DNA of 64,000 nucleotides, taken from Stappia indica. GTDB lineage: Bacteria > Pseudomonadota > Alphaproteobacteria > Rhizobiales > Stappiaceae. Under the pieces are notes generated by a model, which searched no databases, had not been told where the DNA came from, and saw only the letters and a program-made list of their open reading frames with translations. The stretch spans positions 1,426,001 to 1,490,000 of the forward strand of contig NZ_CP046908.1 in the NCBI RefSeq assembly GCF_009789575.1. Reading direction: 5' to 3'. Positions 1-39,734 of this stretch are shown piece after piece; position 1 is the stretch's first letter; each line of letters starts with the position of its first letter. Both the position numbers and the translations under genes were made by a program.

Positions 1-306
1 CACCGGCACGCCGAGCGCGGCCTGCAGGTCGCGCTGGAACAGGGAGAGAAAACCGCAATTGGTGGTGATGCCGTCGACCCCGTCGGCGACGAGCTCGCGC
101 CCGGCCGCGATGAAGGCGTCGAGCAGCCCGCTTGCCCCCTGCCGCACCGCCCGGTCGGGCGTCGCATCGCGCACGATGCGGTAATGCACCGGGAACGGCC
201 AGGTCAGCGCATTGCCCATGTCGCCGGGGATGCGGGGAAAGCGCGCCTCCAGCATCAGGATTCCCACCGCCGCGCCGTAAAGCGCCTTGCCGCCACGCAC
301 CGTCAT
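1..306 (-). CDS. Aspartate/glutamate racemase family protein (partial, 3' end outside window)
   Basis: The reading frame begins with ATG at 306 and runs off the left edge without a stop, giving the first 102 residues. The protein begins MTVRGGKALYGAAVGILMLE and contains DGVDGITTNCGFLSLFQ, a run with the cysteine-centred ITTNCGF motif typical of proteins annotated as aspartate/glutamate or hydantoin racemases. Family members invert amino acids or hydantoins with paired cysteines; only the first Cys region is visible here. It is divergent from the FAD oxidoreductase at 515, and the shared intergenic space holds the 440-463 repeat element. With an oxoprolinase and a TRAP transporter nearby, a role in racemising an imported cyclic or D-amino acid is inferred. 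The family call is fairly sure; the substrate is unknown. Confidence 0.72.
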   Translation of the reverse strand, partial: MTVRGGKALYGAAVGILMLEARFPRIPGDMGNALTWPFPVHYRIVRDATPDRAVRQGASGLLDAFIAAGRELVADGVDGITTNCGFLSLFQRDLQAALGVPV

Positions 307-439
307 CTCGTTCCTCCCGAAACGGCGTTGCTGCCCCGCCTGCCGAAAACCCTGCGTCAACCTTGGCAAGAACGCCCCCTGTCCAGGAACTGTGCACCGG
401 AAGGACTGCAATTCAAGGACCTTGCGCAGACTATTGAGG

Positions 440-465
440 ACATTTTGTCGATAAATTGTTGACAA
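440..465. promoter_or_regulatory. Putative operator, copy 1 of a shared 24-bp element
   Basis: Positions 440-463 match 5007-5030 at 23 of 24 bases; the core is TCGATAAATTGTTGAC. Here the element sits inside an imperfect dyad, TTGTC at 445-449 facing GACAA at 461-465, with 8 of 10 positions pairing around centre 455. It lies between the divergent racemase-like gene and the oxidoreductase, about 50 bp upstream of the latter. A second small dyad, TGACA-CT-TGTCA, lies at 481-492. A regulator site is inferred; no cognate regulator gene is in the window. Confidence 0.6.
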
Positions 466-514
466 CAGAACCTGACCCCATGACACTTGTCACAATTGGC
501 CGGGGAGAGGCAGA

Positions 515-1777
515 GTGCAGCAGCACGACAGCGGGCGTTTGCGGATTGTGGTGATCGGCGCGGGGATCGTCGGCGTCAGCGCCGCGCTCCGCCTCCTTGC
601 CGACGGTCATGAGGTCACCCTGCTCGACCGCGCCGGCCCCGGCGAGGGCACGTCCCACGGCAATGGCGGCGTGCTCGCTTCCTGCGCCGTCGTGCCGGTC
701 ACCGTACCCGGCCTGCCGGCCAAGGCGCCGCGCATGCTGATGGACCCGGACAGCCCGCTGTTCCTGCGCTGGTCCTACCTGCCGCGCCTGCTGCCCTGGC
801 TGTCGAAATACCTCTCCCATTGCAACACGGGCGAGACCGAGCGCATCGCCCGCGCGCTGCTGCCCATCGTCGGCAACAGCCTCGAGGAGCACCGATCGCT
901 CGCCGGCGACACGGCGGCCGGACGATGGATCGCCCCGTCCGACTATCTCTACGTCTACCGCGACCGCGCCGCCTTCGAGGGCGACGCCTTCGGCTGGCGG
1001 CTGCGGCGCGAGGCCGGCTTTTCCTGGCAGGAGATGGAAGGCGCCGCGCTCGGTGCCTACGACCCGCTGCTGGGCGAGGCCAACCGCTTCGCCGTCCGCC
1101 TTCTCGATCACGGCGTCATCCGCGATCCGGGCCGCTACGTGAAGGATCTCGCCGCCGAATTCGAGGCGCGCGGCGGCACGCTCCTGCGCGGCGCGCTGCA
1201 GGGCTTCGTGACCGAGAACGGCCGCCTCGCCTCCCTTGCCACCGACGGCGGGCCGCTCGCCTGCGACCGGGCGGTGCTGGCGACCGGCGTGTGGTCGGGG
1301 CCGCTGGCCGACCAGCTCGGCATTTCCGTGCCGCTGGAGAGCGAGCGCGGCTACCATCTGGAGCTGGAGGCGCCGAGCGCGATGCCGCGCGCGCCCTTCA
1401 TGTTCGCCTCCGCGAAATTCGTCGCAACGCCGCTCGACGGGCGCATCCGCCTTGCCGGCGTCGTCGAGTTCGGCGGCCTTGCCGCGGGACCGGCAAAGGC
1501 GCCGTTCGAGCTTCTGGAGCGCCAGCTGCGCCGGGCCATGCCCGCGCTGCGCTGGGACGCCACGCGCCAATGGATGGGTCACCGGCCGGCGCCGGCCGAT
1601 TCCATCCCCGTGATCGGGCCGTCGCCGGCATGCGGCGACGTCCTGATGGCTTTCGGCCACCATCATATCGGCCTGACCGGCGGTCCCAGGACCGGTCGCC
1701 TCGTCGCCGACATGATCGCCGGCCGCAAGCCGAATATCGACCCCGCCCCCTATTCGCCTGCCCGTTTCGCTGTCTAG
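515..1777 (+). CDS. FAD-dependent D-amino-acid dehydrogenase-like oxidoreductase (DadA family)
   Basis: A 420-residue protein with an N-terminal Rossmann dinucleotide-binding motif (IVVIGAGIVGVSAALRL, residues about 10-26) and the family C-terminal block HRPAPADSIPVIGP followed by GHHHIGLTGGP near residue 375-390, where DadA/glycine-oxidase members contact FAD. Such enzymes oxidise D-amino or secondary amino acids to imino acids and pass electrons to the respiratory chain or oxygen. The length matches DadA (about 410-435). It is first in a run of co-directional genes (oxidoreductase, TRAP transporter, oxoprolinase). Together with the divergent racemase this suggests oxidation of an imported D-amino acid or cyclic imino acid. 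The exact substrate cannot be read from sequence. Confidence 0.82.
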   Translation: MQQHDSGRLRIVVIGAGIVGVSAALRLLADGHEVTLLDRAGPGEGTSHGNGGVLASCAVVPVTVPGLPAKAPRMLMDPDSPLFLRWSYLPRLLPWLSKYLSHCNTGETERIARALLPIVGNSLEEHRSLAGDTAAGRWIAPSDYLYVYRDRAAFEGDAFGWRLRREAGFSWQEMEGAALGAYDPLLGEANRFAVRLLDHGVIRDPGRYVKDLAAEFEARGGTLLRGALQGFVTENGRLASLATDGGPLACDRAVLATGVWSGPLADQLGISVPLESERGYHLELEAPSAMPRAPFMFASAKFVATPLDGRIRLAGVVEFGGLAAGPAKAPFELLERQLRRAMPALRWDATRQWMGHRPAPADSIPVIGPSPACGDVLMAFGHHHIGLTGGPRTGRLVADMIAGRKPNIDPAPYSPARFAV

Positions 1778-1875
1778 AGTGAGGCATTGGGCACTGGGCT
1801 GCGGGAACACCGACCAGAGACCTGGAGTGCCGCGAGATCCGGAACAATCGGATCCCGGCCGATGGAGGACCGAAC

Positions 1876-2865
1876 ATGACTGACCTGCTGAAGAGCACCA
1901 CCGGCATCGTAACCGCGGCGCTTCTTGCCGCCGCAGCCGCCTCCCCGGCGCTTGCCGCCGAGAAGTGGGACATGCCGCTCGCCTATCCGGCGACCAACTT
2001 CCATTCCGAGAACGCGGCCGCCTTCGCCGCCTGCGTCACGTCGGGCAGCGGCGGCGAGATCGAGATCGTCACGCATCCGGGCGGCTCGCTGTTCGGCGGC
2101 GCCGACATCAAGCGCGCCGTGCAGACCGGCCAGGTGCCGATCGGCGAGCGCCTGCTCTCCGCCCATGCCAACGAGGACGCGATCTTCGGCGTCGACAGCA
2201 TTCCCTTCCTCGCCACCTCCTTCGACGATTCGGTGAAGCTGTGGACCGCCGCCGAGGGCGCGGTGGAAGAGGCGCTGGACGGCCAGAACCTCGTCCTTCT
2301 CTACAGCGTGCCGTGGCCGCCGCAGGGCCTGTACTTCAACAAGGAAGTCAATTCCGGCTCCGACATGAAGGGCATCAAGTTCCGCGCCTACAACGCCGCC
2401 ACCGCCAAGCTCGCCGAGCTGACCGGCATGCTCCCGGTGCAGATCGAGGCCGCCGAGGTCTCCCAGGCCTTCGCCACCGGCGTTGCCGAATCGATGATCT
2501 CCTCCGGCGCCACCGGCTACGACAGCAAGCTGTGGGAGAACGTCTCGCACTTCTACGAGGTCGACGCCTGGCTGCCGCGCAACTCGGTGATGGTCAACAA
2601 GGACACCTGGGCCGGCCTGTCGGACGACATGAAGAAGGTCTTCACCGACTGCGCCGCCAAGGCCGAGGCCGACGGCCTGCAGAAGGCCAAGGACTACACC
2701 AAGCTGACGCTGGACGGCCTGGCCTCCAACGGCATGAAGGTGCTGAAGCCCAGCGACCAGCTCAAGGCCGACCTGGCGGTCGTTGGCGAGGCCATGACCG
2801 ACGAGTGGCTGAAGGCTGCCGGCGACAAGGGCAAGGCCATCGTCGACGCCTACAAGGCCAACTGA
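1876..2865 (+). CDS. dctP: TRAP transporter solute-binding protein (DctP family)
   Basis: A 329-residue periplasmic protein with a clear signal peptide (hydrophobic VTAALLAAAAASPALA, cleavage probably after ALA near residue 27). The block DMKGIKFRAYNA around residues 163-174 carries the arginine that, in characterised TRAP binding proteins, pairs with the ligand carboxylate. The family captures organic or amino acids in the periplasm and delivers them to the DctQ/DctM membrane pair. The start has GGAGGACCGAAC just upstream. A 223-bp gap with a strong hairpin separates it from dctQ, as expected if the binding protein is made in excess. The ligand is unknown; the flanking oxidoreductase and oxoprolinase suggest a carboxylated amino acid or lactam. 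Confidence 0.9.
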   Translation: MTDLLKSTTGIVTAALLAAAAASPALAAEKWDMPLAYPATNFHSENAAAFAACVTSGSGGEIEIVTHPGGSLFGGADIKRAVQTGQVPIGERLLSAHANEDAIFGVDSIPFLATSFDDSVKLWTAAEGAVEEALDGQNLVLLYSVPWPPQGLYFNKEVNSGSDMKGIKFRAYNAATAKLAELTGMLPVQIEAAEVSQAFATGVAESMISSGATGYDSKLWENVSHFYEVDAWLPRNSVMVNKDTWAGLSDDMKKVFTDCAAKAEADGLQKAKDYTKLTLDGLASNGMKVLKPSDQLKADLAVVGEAMTDEWLKAAGDKGKAIVDAYKAN

Positions 2866-3005
2866 GCGGCGGGATCTCCCGCCTCCGTCACCGACGGTTC
2901 GGGCGCGCCGCCCTGCGGCAGGCGCGCCGGGTCTGCCGCAGTCTCCCGATCGCGGCAGAACGCCGTCCCTGACAGCCGGGCTTCCGCCCGTGCCGGCCTG
3001 CCGGC

Positions 3006-3048
3006 CTGCCGGCTGCCGGACCGCTCCTTGCGGCCCGGCAGCCGGCAG
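3006..3048 (+). promoter_or_regulatory. Intercistronic stem-loop between dctP and dctQ
   Basis: CTGCCGGCTGCCGG (3006-3019) is perfectly complementary to CCGGCAGCCGGCAG (3035-3048), a 14-bp GC-only stem with a 15-nt loop that can itself fold (CCGC/GCGG). No U-tract follows, so it is more likely an mRNA-stabilising or processing hairpin than a terminator. It would raise binding-protein yield over the membrane subunits. Confidence 0.6.
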
Positions 3049-3088
3049 TCGCGCCGTGGCCGGTCCGAGACACACACGGAACACGACC

Positions 3089-3622
3089 ATGATCGCATTC
3101 GGGCGCGGACTTCGCCGCCTTCTGGACGGTCTGTATCTGGCCGGCGGCATGCTCGCCGCGCTGGCGCTGGTCTCCATCCTCGCCATCATCGTGGCGCAGA
3201 TGGTTGCCCGCTGGACCGGCCTCATCTTCCCGGGCGCTGCCAGCTATGCCGGCTACGCCATGGCCTCGGCCTCCTTCTTCGCCTTCGCCCACGCGCTCAA
3301 CCGCGGCGCCCATATCCGCGTCAGCATCCTGCTCAACGCGCTCGGCAGCCGCCGCCGCTGGCTCGAGGTCTGGTGCTTCGGCATCGGCGCCGCCCTCACC
3401 TGGTACCTGTCCTACTACGCGATCAAGGCCGTCTACTGGTCGCACAAGCTGCATGACGTCAGCCAGGGCCAGGACGCCACACCCCTTTGGATCCCCCAGT
3501 CGGCCATGGCCGCCGGCGCGGTCCTTCTCGCCATCGCCATGACGGATCACCTGGTCCGCGTTCTCGTCCTCGGCTCGTCGGGCATCGTCGCCGACACGGT
3601 CGAACAGAGCCACGGGGAGTAA
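3089..3622 (+). CDS. dctQ: TRAP transporter small permease subunit (DctQ family)
   Basis: A 177-residue integral membrane protein. ATG at 3089 is chosen because the longer open frame upstream is GC-rich, arginine/proline-rich read-through of the hairpin region. Hydrophobic segments are visible at about residues 15-40 (YLAGGMLAALALVSILAIIV), 50-70, 90-115 and 130-160, matching the four-helix DctQ plan. The family partners with DctM to form the sodium-coupled transporter that accepts solute from DctP. It lies 6 bp before dctM, so the two are almost certainly co-translated. Confidence 0.88.
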   Translation: MIAFGRGLRRLLDGLYLAGGMLAALALVSILAIIVAQMVARWTGLIFPGAASYAGYAMASASFFAFAHALNRGAHIRVSILLNALGSRRRWLEVWCFGIGAALTWYLSYYAIKAVYWSHKLHDVSQGQDATPLWIPQSAMAAGAVLLAIAMTDHLVRVLVLGSSGIVADTVEQSHGE

Positions 3623-3628
3623 GCCGCC

Positions 3629-4936
3629 ATGGAAACCTTCGCTCCCATCATTCTCTTCCTCTTCGTGCTGTTCCTGCTGCTGGGCACCGGCGTATGGGTC
3701 GGCCTTGCCCTGCTCGGCGTCGCCTTCGTCGGCATGGAGCTGTTCACCTCGCGCCCGGCGGGCGACGCCATGATCACGGTGATCTGGGCCGCCTCCTCGT
3801 CCTGGACGCTGACCGCCCTGCCGCTGTTCATCTGGATGGGCGAGATCCTCTACCGAACGCGCCTGTCGGAAGACATGTTCCGCGGCCTTGCCCCGTGGAT
3901 GGCCCGCCTGCCCGGCGGCCTGCTGCACACCAACGTGGTCGGCTGCACGGTCTTTGCCGCCGTCTCCGGCTCCTCCGCCGCCACCCTGACGACGGTCGGC
4001 AAGATGTCGGTGCCGGAACTGCGCAAGCGCGACTATCCGGAAAAGATGGTGATCGGCACGCTGGCGGGCGCCGCCACCCTCGGCCTGATGATCCCGCCCT
4101 CGCTGACGCTGATCGTCTACGGCGTCACCATCAACGAATCCATCACCAAGCTGTTCATGGCCGGCATCCTGCCGGGCCTGGTGCTGGCCAGCCTGTTCAT
4201 GGGCTATATCGCGGTCTACGCGAAGGTCTCGAAGGACTACAAGCCGCAGCCCGAGCCGCAGATGAGCTTCCGCGAAAAGCTCGCCAACTCGCGCTTCCTG
4301 CTGCCGGTGATCGCGCTGATCATCGTCGTCATCGGCTCGATGTATACCGGCCTTGCCACCGCCACCGAGGCCGCGGCCCTCGGCGTCATCGGTTCGCTGC
4401 TGCTTGCCGCCGGCCAGGGCTCGCTCACCTGGAAGACCTTCGGCGAGAGCCTGATGGGCGCCACCCGCACCTCGGCGATGGTGGCGCTGATCCTCGCCGG
4501 CGCCGCCTTCCTGTCGCTGTCCATGGGCTTCACCGGCCTGCCGCGCGCACTGGCCGCCTGGATCGCCGACATGCAGCTCTCGCGCTTCGAGCTGCTGATG
4601 GCGCTGCTGGTCTTCTACATCGTCATCGGCTGCTTCCTGGACGGCATCTCCTCCGTGGTGCTGACCATGGCGGTGGTCGAGCCGATGATCCGCGCCGCCG
4701 GCATCGACGCCATCTGGTTCGGCATCTTCGTCGTGGTGGTCGTGGAGATGGCGCAGATCACGCCGCCCATCGGCTTCAACCTGTTCGTGCTGCAGGGCAT
4801 GACGCGGCACGAGATGACCTATATCGCCCGCGCCGCCCTGCCGATGTTCGCGCTGATGGTGGTGATGGTGTTCATCCTGATCGCCTTCCCGGAGCTGGCG
4901 ACCTGGCTGCCCGAGAACATGCGCAACCGGCCGTAA
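3629..4936 (+). CDS. dctM: TRAP transporter large permease subunit (DctM family)
   Basis: A 435-residue polytopic membrane protein with about a dozen hydrophobic segments. The family blocks AAVSGSSAATLTTVGKM (about residues 110-126) and GLMIPPSLTLIVYGV (about 152-166) are diagnostic of DctM, as is TPPIGFNLFVLQGM near residue 378-391. It catalyses the sodium-driven transport step for the solute delivered by DctP. GGGGAG at 3614-3619 supplies a ribosome site ahead of the ATG. A hairpin follows at 4956-4988. Confidence 0.93.
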   Translation: METFAPIILFLFVLFLLLGTGVWVGLALLGVAFVGMELFTSRPAGDAMITVIWAASSSWTLTALPLFIWMGEILYRTRLSEDMFRGLAPWMARLPGGLLHTNVVGCTVFAAVSGSSAATLTTVGKMSVPELRKRDYPEKMVIGTLAGAATLGLMIPPSLTLIVYGVTINESITKLFMAGILPGLVLASLFMGYIAVYAKVSKDYKPQPEPQMSFREKLANSRFLLPVIALIIVVIGSMYTGLATATEAAALGVIGSLLLAAGQGSLTWKTFGESLMGATRTSAMVALILAGAAFLSLSMGFTGLPRALAAWIADMQLSRFELLMALLVFYIVIGCFLDGISSVVLTMAVVEPMIRAAGIDAIWFGIFVVVVVEMAQITPPIGFNLFVLQGMTRHEMTYIARAALPMFALMVVMVFILIAFPELATWLPENMRNRP

Positions 4937-4955
4937 GGTGCGGCTTCGCAAGGAC

Positions 4956-4988
4956 TTCCCTCGCCCGCCCCGTTTGCGGGCGAGGGAA
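4956..4988 (+). terminator. Hairpin after dctM
   Basis: TTCCCTCGCCCGC (4956-4968) pairs perfectly with GCGGGCGAGGGAA (4976-4988) across a 7-nt loop. There is no downstream T-run on the plus strand, so it could be a weak terminator, an attenuator before the oxoprolinase gene, or an mRNA 3'-end stabiliser. Confidence 0.5.
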
Positions 4989-5006
4989 ATTGCAAAAACA
5001 ACATTG

Positions 5007-5030
5007 ACATTTTCTCGATAAATTGTTGAC
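5007..5030. promoter_or_regulatory. Putative operator, copy 2 of a shared 24-bp element
   Basis: This segment matches 440-463 with a single mismatch (C for G at the eighth base). It lies about 73 bp upstream of the oxoprolinase start, after the dctM hairpin. Its outer dyad is less perfect than in copy 1. The position suggests that the oxoprolinase has its own promoter under the same control as the oxidoreductase/TRAP unit. Confidence 0.6.
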
Positions 5031-38542: not shown

Positions 38543-38566
38543 TACCGGCAGGCGTGCGGCCCAGGC

Positions 38567-38694
38567 CGTGGACTCATAATTGTGCCGGCAACGGCGTCGC
38601 AAAACCTTGAAAACCGAATGGTTTCCTGCGGTCTTGCTCCTTGTATCCGAACAGGTTCGCGCAGACCGTTTCTCGCCAGAATTATGAGTTCACG
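38567..38694. mobile_element. MITE-like 128-bp element with 21-bp terminal inverted repeats
   Basis: The left end (38567-38587) begins CGTGGACTCATAATTGTGCC, and the right end (38674-38694), read in reverse complement, begins CGTGAACTCATAATTCTGGC; 18 of 21 bases match. The 86-bp interior has no open frame of note and no similarity to either flanking gene. Size, inverted ends and lack of coding capacity are those of a miniature inverted-repeat element or a deleted insertion sequence. It lies between the GT61-like gene and the stop codon of the GT10-like gene (2 bp away). No clear target-site duplication was seen. Confidence 0.68.
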
Positions 38695-38696
38695 AC

Positions 38697-39734
38697 CTAG
38701 CCGCGTTCGAACAGCGCCAGATGCAGCCGGTCGGCCACCCGCCGCAGCGGCCTCAGCGCCTGCGTGAGCCGGCGATAGGGCGCGCGTGCCGGCGGGCGGA
38801 TTGCCTGCGCCTCGGCCAGCAGGGCCGGCGCGCCCTCCCCGCGCCCCTTCACCAGCCGTTCGAGCACCGGAAACACCTGGTGCTCCTCCATCAGCCGGCG
38901 GCGGTTTTCGCGCATCGCCGCTTGCACCTCGGGCCGCGACACCGGATCGTCTTCCACGACGGCGAGCAGCGTCTTCAGCGCCGTTTCCGGCCGGGTGATG
39001 TCCAGCGCGGTGAAACCGAGCGGATCGAAATAGCGCTCCAGCCCCGGCCCGCCGGCAACGATGGGATAGGCCCCGGCCAGCAGCGGATCGGCGAGTTTTT
39101 CCGTCCAGCAATGCGGATCGAGGTTGTTCTCCAGCACCAGGTGGTAGCGGTAGCCGTCGAGCCCTTCGGCCTTGTCGGCGACCTCGCGAAAACCGCGCCC
39201 GTAGATGTCGAGCCGCTCGCCCAGCGCCGCCTTGGCACGGCGCAGGAAACGGAGCCGGCGCACCTGGTTGCGGTTCAGCGCCTTGGTCGAGCAGACGGCC
39301 GAAATCAGTCCGCGCACCGGCTCGCAAGGAACAGGCCGCGCTGCAAGCTCGGCAAAGCCGAGCCGCGGCGGACCGCCGGCGGAGGCGCCGAGCCCCGTCC
39401 CGTAGAACCACGGCGAGGACGGCTGCATGTGCAAGGCCTCGCCGTCGAAACCGGGCAGCGGCGACGAGGTGACGGCAATCCCGAACTGCGAGATGAAGGC
39501 CGGATCGTAATGCTTGATCGACACCGGCTCGGGCAGGAAGACGATGCGGCGCTCACGCGGCAGAAGCGTCAGCAGCCCGCGCGGCGGCTGGTCGTAGACC
39601 ACCAGCCAGTCCGCTCCCTCGCCCGTGCCGTTGCCGGGCACAAGGTGGATGTCGCCCCATCGCCCGTCGCCTTCCCGGCTTTGGCGCAGCAGAAAGTCGA
39701 AGGATTGGGCGGTGGCGAGCTGGATGACGGTCAT
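38697..39734 (-). CDS. Glycosyltransferase family 10-like (fucosyltransferase C-terminal domain) protein
   Basis: A 345-residue protein. ATG at 39734 (MTVIQLATAQS) is chosen because a longer open frame runs back through the terminator of the next gene. The C-terminal half has the alpha-1,3-fucosyltransferase domain: YHLVLENNLDPHCWTEKL (about residues 205-222), then ADPLLAGAYPIVAGGPGLERYFDP, the donor-binding region of GT10. The N-terminal half (RRIVFLPEPVSIKHYDPAFI) fits an acceptor domain. It would add a fucose-like or other GDP-sugar residue to a surface glycan. The stop lies 2 bp from the MITE-like element, raising the possibility that the 3' end was reshaped by the insertion. Confidence 0.72.
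   Translation of the reverse strand: MTVIQLATAQSFDFLLRQSREGDGRWGDIHLVPGNGTGEGADWLVVYDQPPRGLLTLLPRERRIVFLPEPVSIKHYDPAFISQFGIAVTSSPLPGFDGEALHMQPSSPWFYGTGLGASAGGPPRLGFAELAARPVPCEPVRGLISAVCSTKALNRNQVRRLRFLRRAKAALGERLDIYGRGFREVADKAEGLDGYRYHLVLENNLDPHCWTEKLADPLLAGAYPIVAGGPGLERYFDPLGFTALDITRPETALKTLLAVVEDDPVSRPEVQAAMRENRRRLMEEHQVFPVLERLVKGRGEGAPALLAEAQAIRPPARAPYRRLTQALRPLRRVADRLHLALFERG

Follow-up and report, generated by a model that had tools for sequence, protein, structure and literature searches.

Near the left end of the window, by which we mean the whole stretch of 64,000 nucleotides analysed here (C1:1426001-1490000 of the 5.1-Mb genome of Stappia indica), two nearly identical 24-bp elements precede the gene of an FAD-dependent oxidoreductase (DAO) and that of a 5-oxoprolinase-like enzyme. 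This raises the question of what these elements are and by which protein they are read. The answer that we favour, with a probability of roughly 0.75, is that both copies serve as operators for REG, a MarR-like (HTH_27) repressor encoded close by, in the control of uptake and ring opening of 5-oxoproline. Coordinates of the features concerned are given in Table 1.

An earlier note on this DNA had described the two copies as identical but for one base. Indeed, positions 440-463 and 5007-5030 agree in 23 of 24 bases and share an exact 16-bp core (448-463 and 5015-5030). With up to three mismatches allowed the core has no match in the window besides the two copies, and two of 100 shuffled windows contained at least two such matches. 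Pairs of 24-mers with at most one mismatch, counted on both strands, number four in the real window, the twin element among them, and none of 60 windows simulated with a first-order Markov model contained any. The other three near-exact pairs (14935/15548, 33052/33898 and 33384/54550) are G+C-rich. The distance of 50-75 bp to the genes was also given correctly, with 51 bp between the end of copy 1 and the GTG start of DAO (515) and 73 bp between the end of copy 2 and the ATG start of the oxoprolinase gene (5104), as was the position of copy 1 between divergent genes, those of the racemase and DAO. The outer TTGTC/GACAA dyad which had been pointed out is present in copy 1 (445-449/461-465), but copy 2 has TTCTC/GACGT there, so that this dyad is not the feature common to both copies. 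The common and conserved feature is a longer imperfect dyad of 28 bp, which contains the 24-mers.

Table 1. Features of the cluster and its predicted control elements; positions are those of the window unless prefixed by C1.
Feature	Position	Strand	Remark
REG, proposed regulator	C1:1424967-1425509	-	behind the racemase gene, 491 bp (~0.5 kb) left of the window edge
Racemase gene (PF01177), 5' part	1..306	-	runs left beyond the window to C1:1425587
Operator copy 1 (predicted), 28-bp dyad including 440-463	436..463	.	flanked by the racemase and DAO genes, which diverge
DAO promoter (predicted): -35 TTGACA (459-464), 17-bp spacer, -10-like GACACT (482-487)	459..487	+	-10 predicted from conservation
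DAO, FAD-dependent oxidoreductase (PF01266)	515..1777	+	D-amino-acid-dehydrogenase-like, below NCBIfam cutoffs
TRAP solute-binding protein (DctP)	1876..2865	+	nearest are pyroglutamate-binding DctP proteins
TRAP small permease (DctQ)	3089..3622	+	
TRAP large permease (DctM)	3629..4936	+	
Operator copy 2 (predicted), 28-bp dyad including 5007-5030	5003..5030	.	upstream of the oxoprolinase gene
Fused hydantoinase A/B, 5-oxoprolinase-like, 1200 aa	5104..8706	+	PF05378, PF01968, PF02538

Within the whole genome the dyad pattern, searched with up to three mismatches, was matched at these two places only, and the reversed control gave no match. The scattered copies of a repeat family and the absence from relatives, which the earlier note had named as signs against an operator, were not encountered: the genome contains the pattern nowhere else, and both sites are kept throughout the genus (14 of 14 genomes). 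Three of these genomes have one more dyad of similar sequence, at 2-3 mismatches and away from the cluster (G004:C26:25077, G006:C74:1334 and G011:C2:406362), which is either a further target or due to chance. When the window was scored with a matrix built from 29 sites outside the genus, in other genera of the family, the window copies ranked top (41.1 and 36.0), with the next score at -0.6. The core alone, at 2-3 mismatches, is found at seven other places of the genome, six of which (taken as 3-kb loci, with C1:4959302 left out) score at most 0.5 with the matrix. At no more than one mismatch it is present in 34 of 87 family genomes, the reversed control giving seven matches. In 12 DAO promoters of the genus, selected by the presence of a -10-like hexamer, conservation is 0.85 over the 28 bp versus 0.54 in the 60 bp to the left and 0.61 in the 45 bp to the right. 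DAO is 90-95% identical to its nearest named relatives, from Stappia, and a DAO-based search of named genomes gave seven loci, with both sites in three Stappia loci and no score above 11 in the other four. An Ahrensia MAG (L074) has racemase-DAO-TRAP genes without the site in the contig piece examined (best score -1.0).

According to a matrix from 46 sites of the family (without loci L051, L057 and L066, whose matches pair at only 3-5 of 14 positions), the dyad is centred on TCGA and has T-Y-R-A boxes at its positions 2-5, 13-16 and 24-27, in steps of 11 bp. The arms pair at 9 of 14 positions in each window copy and at 12-13 of 14 in the best relatives; the left arm of copy 1 is degenerate, with AGGA as its first box. 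A second match above 10 lies within 60 bp in 29 of 109 distinct operators, which come from related genomes and are hence non-independent. The two matches are 11 bp apart in 30 of 32 cases, the remaining two being spaced by 22 bp. The matrix is self-similar when slid by 11 bp, and this offset is therefore favoured in such a count; at this slide the scores of the window copies are no higher than 0.2 and -2.3, which means that a second match requires additional boxes.

The predicted promoter of DAO overlaps the site, with its -35 hexamer inside the right arm of copy 1. Of 11 DAO promoters, picked by position alone, 10 combine a TTGAC within the right arm with a downstream GACACT or GAAACT (the exception is L150), and the spacer after TTGACA or TTGACT is 17 bp, or 15 bp in L091. 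TRAP promoters (n=20) have the consensus TTGAT and a TAgc.T-like hexamer. In oxoprolinase promoters (n=49) the downstream part is unconserved with no recognisable -10 box, and the promoter at copy 2 is not readable.

REG, a protein of 180 aa, matches HTH_27 (E 2e-19) and MarR_2 (E 1.8e-6), and the same models match 34 and 32, respectively, of 34 REG relatives. Its profile gives weak matches to MarR structures (E 0.001-0.009), and its structure model is of low confidence (pLDDT 44.7). Among 297 genomes of the order, REG (E <=1e-30, two paralogue rows being removed whose genomes keep the true REG) is present in 90, the site pattern (<=2 mismatches; five matches in the reversed control) in 61, and both in 50. 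The pattern thus occurs in 50 of 90 genomes with REG and in 11 of 207 without it (Fisher p 2e-21, kinship ignored). As REG is found in 87 of 87 genomes of its own family, co-occurrence is informative only outside the family, where 38 of 78 REG genomes have the site versus 11 of 207 (p 4e-16, kinship ignored). After merging, REG genomes contain 75 sites, of which 55 are no more than 8 kb away from REG (19 of these no more than 250 bp) and the other 20 are on contigs other than that of REG; some of these 20 still precede oxoprolinase (L141), TRAP (L144, L147) and DAO (L150) genes. In at least 11 families besides its own (f2, f7, f13, f14, f29, f30, f39, f44, f45, f47 and f49), the site separates REG from an oxoprolinase gene that diverges from it.

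The association is not complete in either direction, with 40 of 90 REG genomes lacking a pattern match in the order search and 11 genomes having the pattern without REG, five of these being 1.3-1.5 Mb genomes of one family (f4). Nine REG loci outside the family include two without a site above 11 (L102, and L104 on a 3.5-kb contig) and one with a weak site (L100, 12.4), and loci of more distant REG relatives (29-43% identical, L107-L110) have no site, the best score being -1.5. At class level REG (E <=1e-25) is present in 40 of 385 genomes; in 3.5-kb pieces around the best 29 loci besides its own, oxoprolinase or TRAP genes were found in 25 and a site above 11 in eight only, one of them barely (11.4); among 580 simulated pieces a single one scored above 11. 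The genome also has a paralogue of REG (43% identical, C1:626871), which lies beside a second TRAP-hydantoinase A/B cluster (L110, C1:620000-634000) with a PLP-dependent aldolase gene. The best matrix score in the 14 kb of this locus is -4.1, so the paralogue probably uses another site, and its cluster may be a sister regulon with a different operator. The partner of the site in the window is probably REG, a MarR-like HTH_27 winged-helix protein.

The earlier note had assigned the element to a regulator of the GntR/FCD type, which we now hold to be quite improbable. Short conserved palindromes of the TTGT..ACAA type characterise GntR/FCD regulators, and the TTGTC/GACAA dyad of copy 1 resembles them, but this dyad is missing from copy 2 and the matrix gives a different dyad of 28 bp. 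The gene beside that of the racemase is HTH_27/MarR-like, REG matching HTH_27 and MarR_2 only, and within 12.6 kb to the left of the window, on which side the note had advised looking for a GntR-type gene, the sole GntR-domain gene called is a GntR-aminotransferase fusion, 8 kb beyond REG. The assignment would fit better with a locus of family f30 (L150), in which a GntR/FCD gene (608-1300) adjoins the site, lying between it and the racemase gene (~0.7 kb from the site) and divergent from DAO; a 53%-identical relative of this FCD protein is found in the genome studied here (C1:863743, one stop within the match). However, the FCD gene of L150 is preceded by a separate palindrome, TTGTATACAA, which we take to be FCD-like, and in the 297 genomes FCD relatives show no link to the site (11 of 40 genomes with FCD versus 50 of 257 without, p 0.17, nine candidates scored per genome), for which reason REG was kept as the partner of the element. 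The site of L150 scores 44, and a second site of the same genome (score 40) stands between REG and the oxoprolinase gene (L129). This locus supports DAO as a member of the regulon, and the DAO branch in family f30 may be under two regulators.

It could also be that operator and regulator are as proposed and REG acts as an activator, which we consider rather unlikely. The MarR-family protein LdtR does activate, according to the available text of its description (PMC3999280), and the operator lies at the margin of the -35 region, a position that some activators occupy; yet in DAO promoters the right arm coincides with the -35 hexamer itself, which fits better with occlusion, and the site is often near the start of REG's own gene, as befits a self-limiting repressor. 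Hardly any credence is left for a recent duplication, a promoter repeat or a mobile repeat without regulatory role: two near-identical copies 4.6 kb apart might be so explained, but the genome has no other copy, the 28 bp are better conserved than their flanks and the position is kept across families. A repeat family was rejected on finding the dyad pattern at two genome places only. The MarR-like nature of REG and its occurrence throughout the family had suggested a cell-wall regulon of the LdtR type, which was also dismissed, as the published LdtR site differs in the text available (PMC3999280).

As a repressor, REG would probably bind to the 28 bp in the form of one dimer or two. Because the -35 box of the predicted DAO promoter falls within the right arm of copy 1, REG bound there should block RNA polymerase at this promoter, and the divergent racemase-REG genes may be under its control as well; bound to copy 2, it would silence the oxoprolinase gene. 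REG would be released by a metabolite of the pathway, for which 5-oxoproline (pyroglutamate) or a closely related compound is the likeliest candidate, whereupon uptake by the TRAP transporter and ring opening by the oxoprolinase would be turned on and, in this genus, racemase and DAO as well, perhaps for a D-form. Computation shows the site with its conservation and its genomic rarity, the genes that follow it and the association with REG. Binding, repression and inducer we infer from the anatomy of the site and from the analogous PxpR system. The regulon outlined in the earlier note, under a pathway-specific operator, is retained for the FAD enzyme, the TRAP transporter and the oxoprolinase, while the racemase is a probable member, copy 1 being common to the divergent genes in the genus.

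The nutrient imported and broken down is probably glutamate-like, namely pyroglutamate (5-oxoproline), as far as protein comparison can tell. The structures nearest to the TRAP binding protein, whose own structure model is poor (pLDDT 34.8), are 6wgm (4e-105), which we take to be a pyroglutamate binder as well, 2pfz (3e-87) and 2pfy (4e-74), with the next match at 2e-17; a binding protein from genus g7 (G019) groups with the same binders. The latter two are DctP6 and DctP7 of Bordetella pertussis, described with pyroglutamic acid in the available parts of PMC3454389 and PMC5812351. A 5-oxoprolinase gene lies near these close relatives according to an excerpt of PMC13274462, and the portions available of all three papers mention no regulator or operator for them. 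In L103 the neighbourhood of REG includes PxpB/PxpC-like genes, and in L106 that of the REG-TRAP genes includes PxpA/B/C-like ones; some of these matches are below strict cutoffs. The oxoprolinase-like protein, in which hydantoinase A and B domains form a single chain, matches the NCBIfam caprolactamase and acetophenone carboxylase models below cutoff only. We also infer a route for the D-form via racemase and DAO. A gene of an MBL-fold hydrolase, distantly lactonase-like in the two loci scanned (L082 and L101), was observed at L079:6389-7075, L081:6123-6896, L082:4309-4995 and L101:2402-3085; it is flanked by two operators in genera g5 and g7, has a single operator next to it in family f21, and perhaps encodes a ring-opening enzyme of the same pathway.

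MarR-type regulators are small winged-helix proteins with local targets which recognize an imperfect palindrome, with a site beside their own gene, and their typical sites are shorter than 28 bp. The site described here differs in having three boxes, spaced 11 bp apart within 28 bp, to which some promoters add further ones. Its setting resembles the PxpR-pxpTABC system of Corynebacterium glutamicum, for which the available text reports measured repression and 5-oxoproline binding (PMC13274462), in that a local regulator stands beside genes for 5-oxoproline uptake and 5-oxoprolinase with an inverted-repeat site in front. PxpR is, according to the same text, of GntR type, its site measures 17 bp and the transporter belongs to the APC superfamily (PMC13274462), in contrast to the HTH_27/MarR-like regulator, 28-bp dyad, TRAP transporter and fused hydantoinase A/B found here. 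LdtR of Liberibacter, likened to REG by description only, is likewise a MarR-family protein conserved in related bacteria, but the gene that it activates encodes a cell-wall enzyme, and its 18-nt site has a different sequence, as given in the accessible part of PMC3999280.

In the open-licence literature no MarR-type regulator of oxoprolinase or hydantoinase genes was found by title or abstract start among the matches listed, and the letters of the motif occur in one unrelated paper only. The locus is a case of ordinary local control, with regulator, operator and catabolic genes, and in that literature we found no earlier description of this regulator or site. The authors of a 2026 paper state, in the text available, that they know of no study on how bacteria regulate 5-oxoproline metabolism which preceded their work on C. 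glutamicum (PMC13274462). If our reading is true, a second and unrelated solution to 5-oxoproline regulation exists in another phylum. For hydantoinase/oxoprolinase clusters with TRAP uptake, the locus provides a candidate regulator with its operator and the genes that belong to them. The site could also be used to locate pathway genes away from the cluster, for example at L141, L144, L147 and L150. A broader idea, which we put forward only tentatively, is that REG-type regulators read T-Y-R-A boxes spaced by one helical turn (11 bp), at least three and in some promoters more, with dimers stacked along one DNA face. They would then form a so far undescribed, pyroglutamate-sensing group of MarR-like regulators widespread in the class, with racemase and FAD enzyme recruited in the genus of the window into a D-glutamate or D-pyroglutamate route.

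A separate observation concerns the other side of the regulator gene, where an element of ~264 bp with inverted terminal repeats (C1:1424693-1424956, or L009:10693-10956) comes to within 10 bp of the REG 3' end. The terminal 18 bp of this element have 55 matches in the genome (<=2 mismatches), many of them paired ~246 bp apart, as in a MITE-like repeat family, and one pair of such ends lies in the window itself (38564-38697), with a spacing of only 116 bp.
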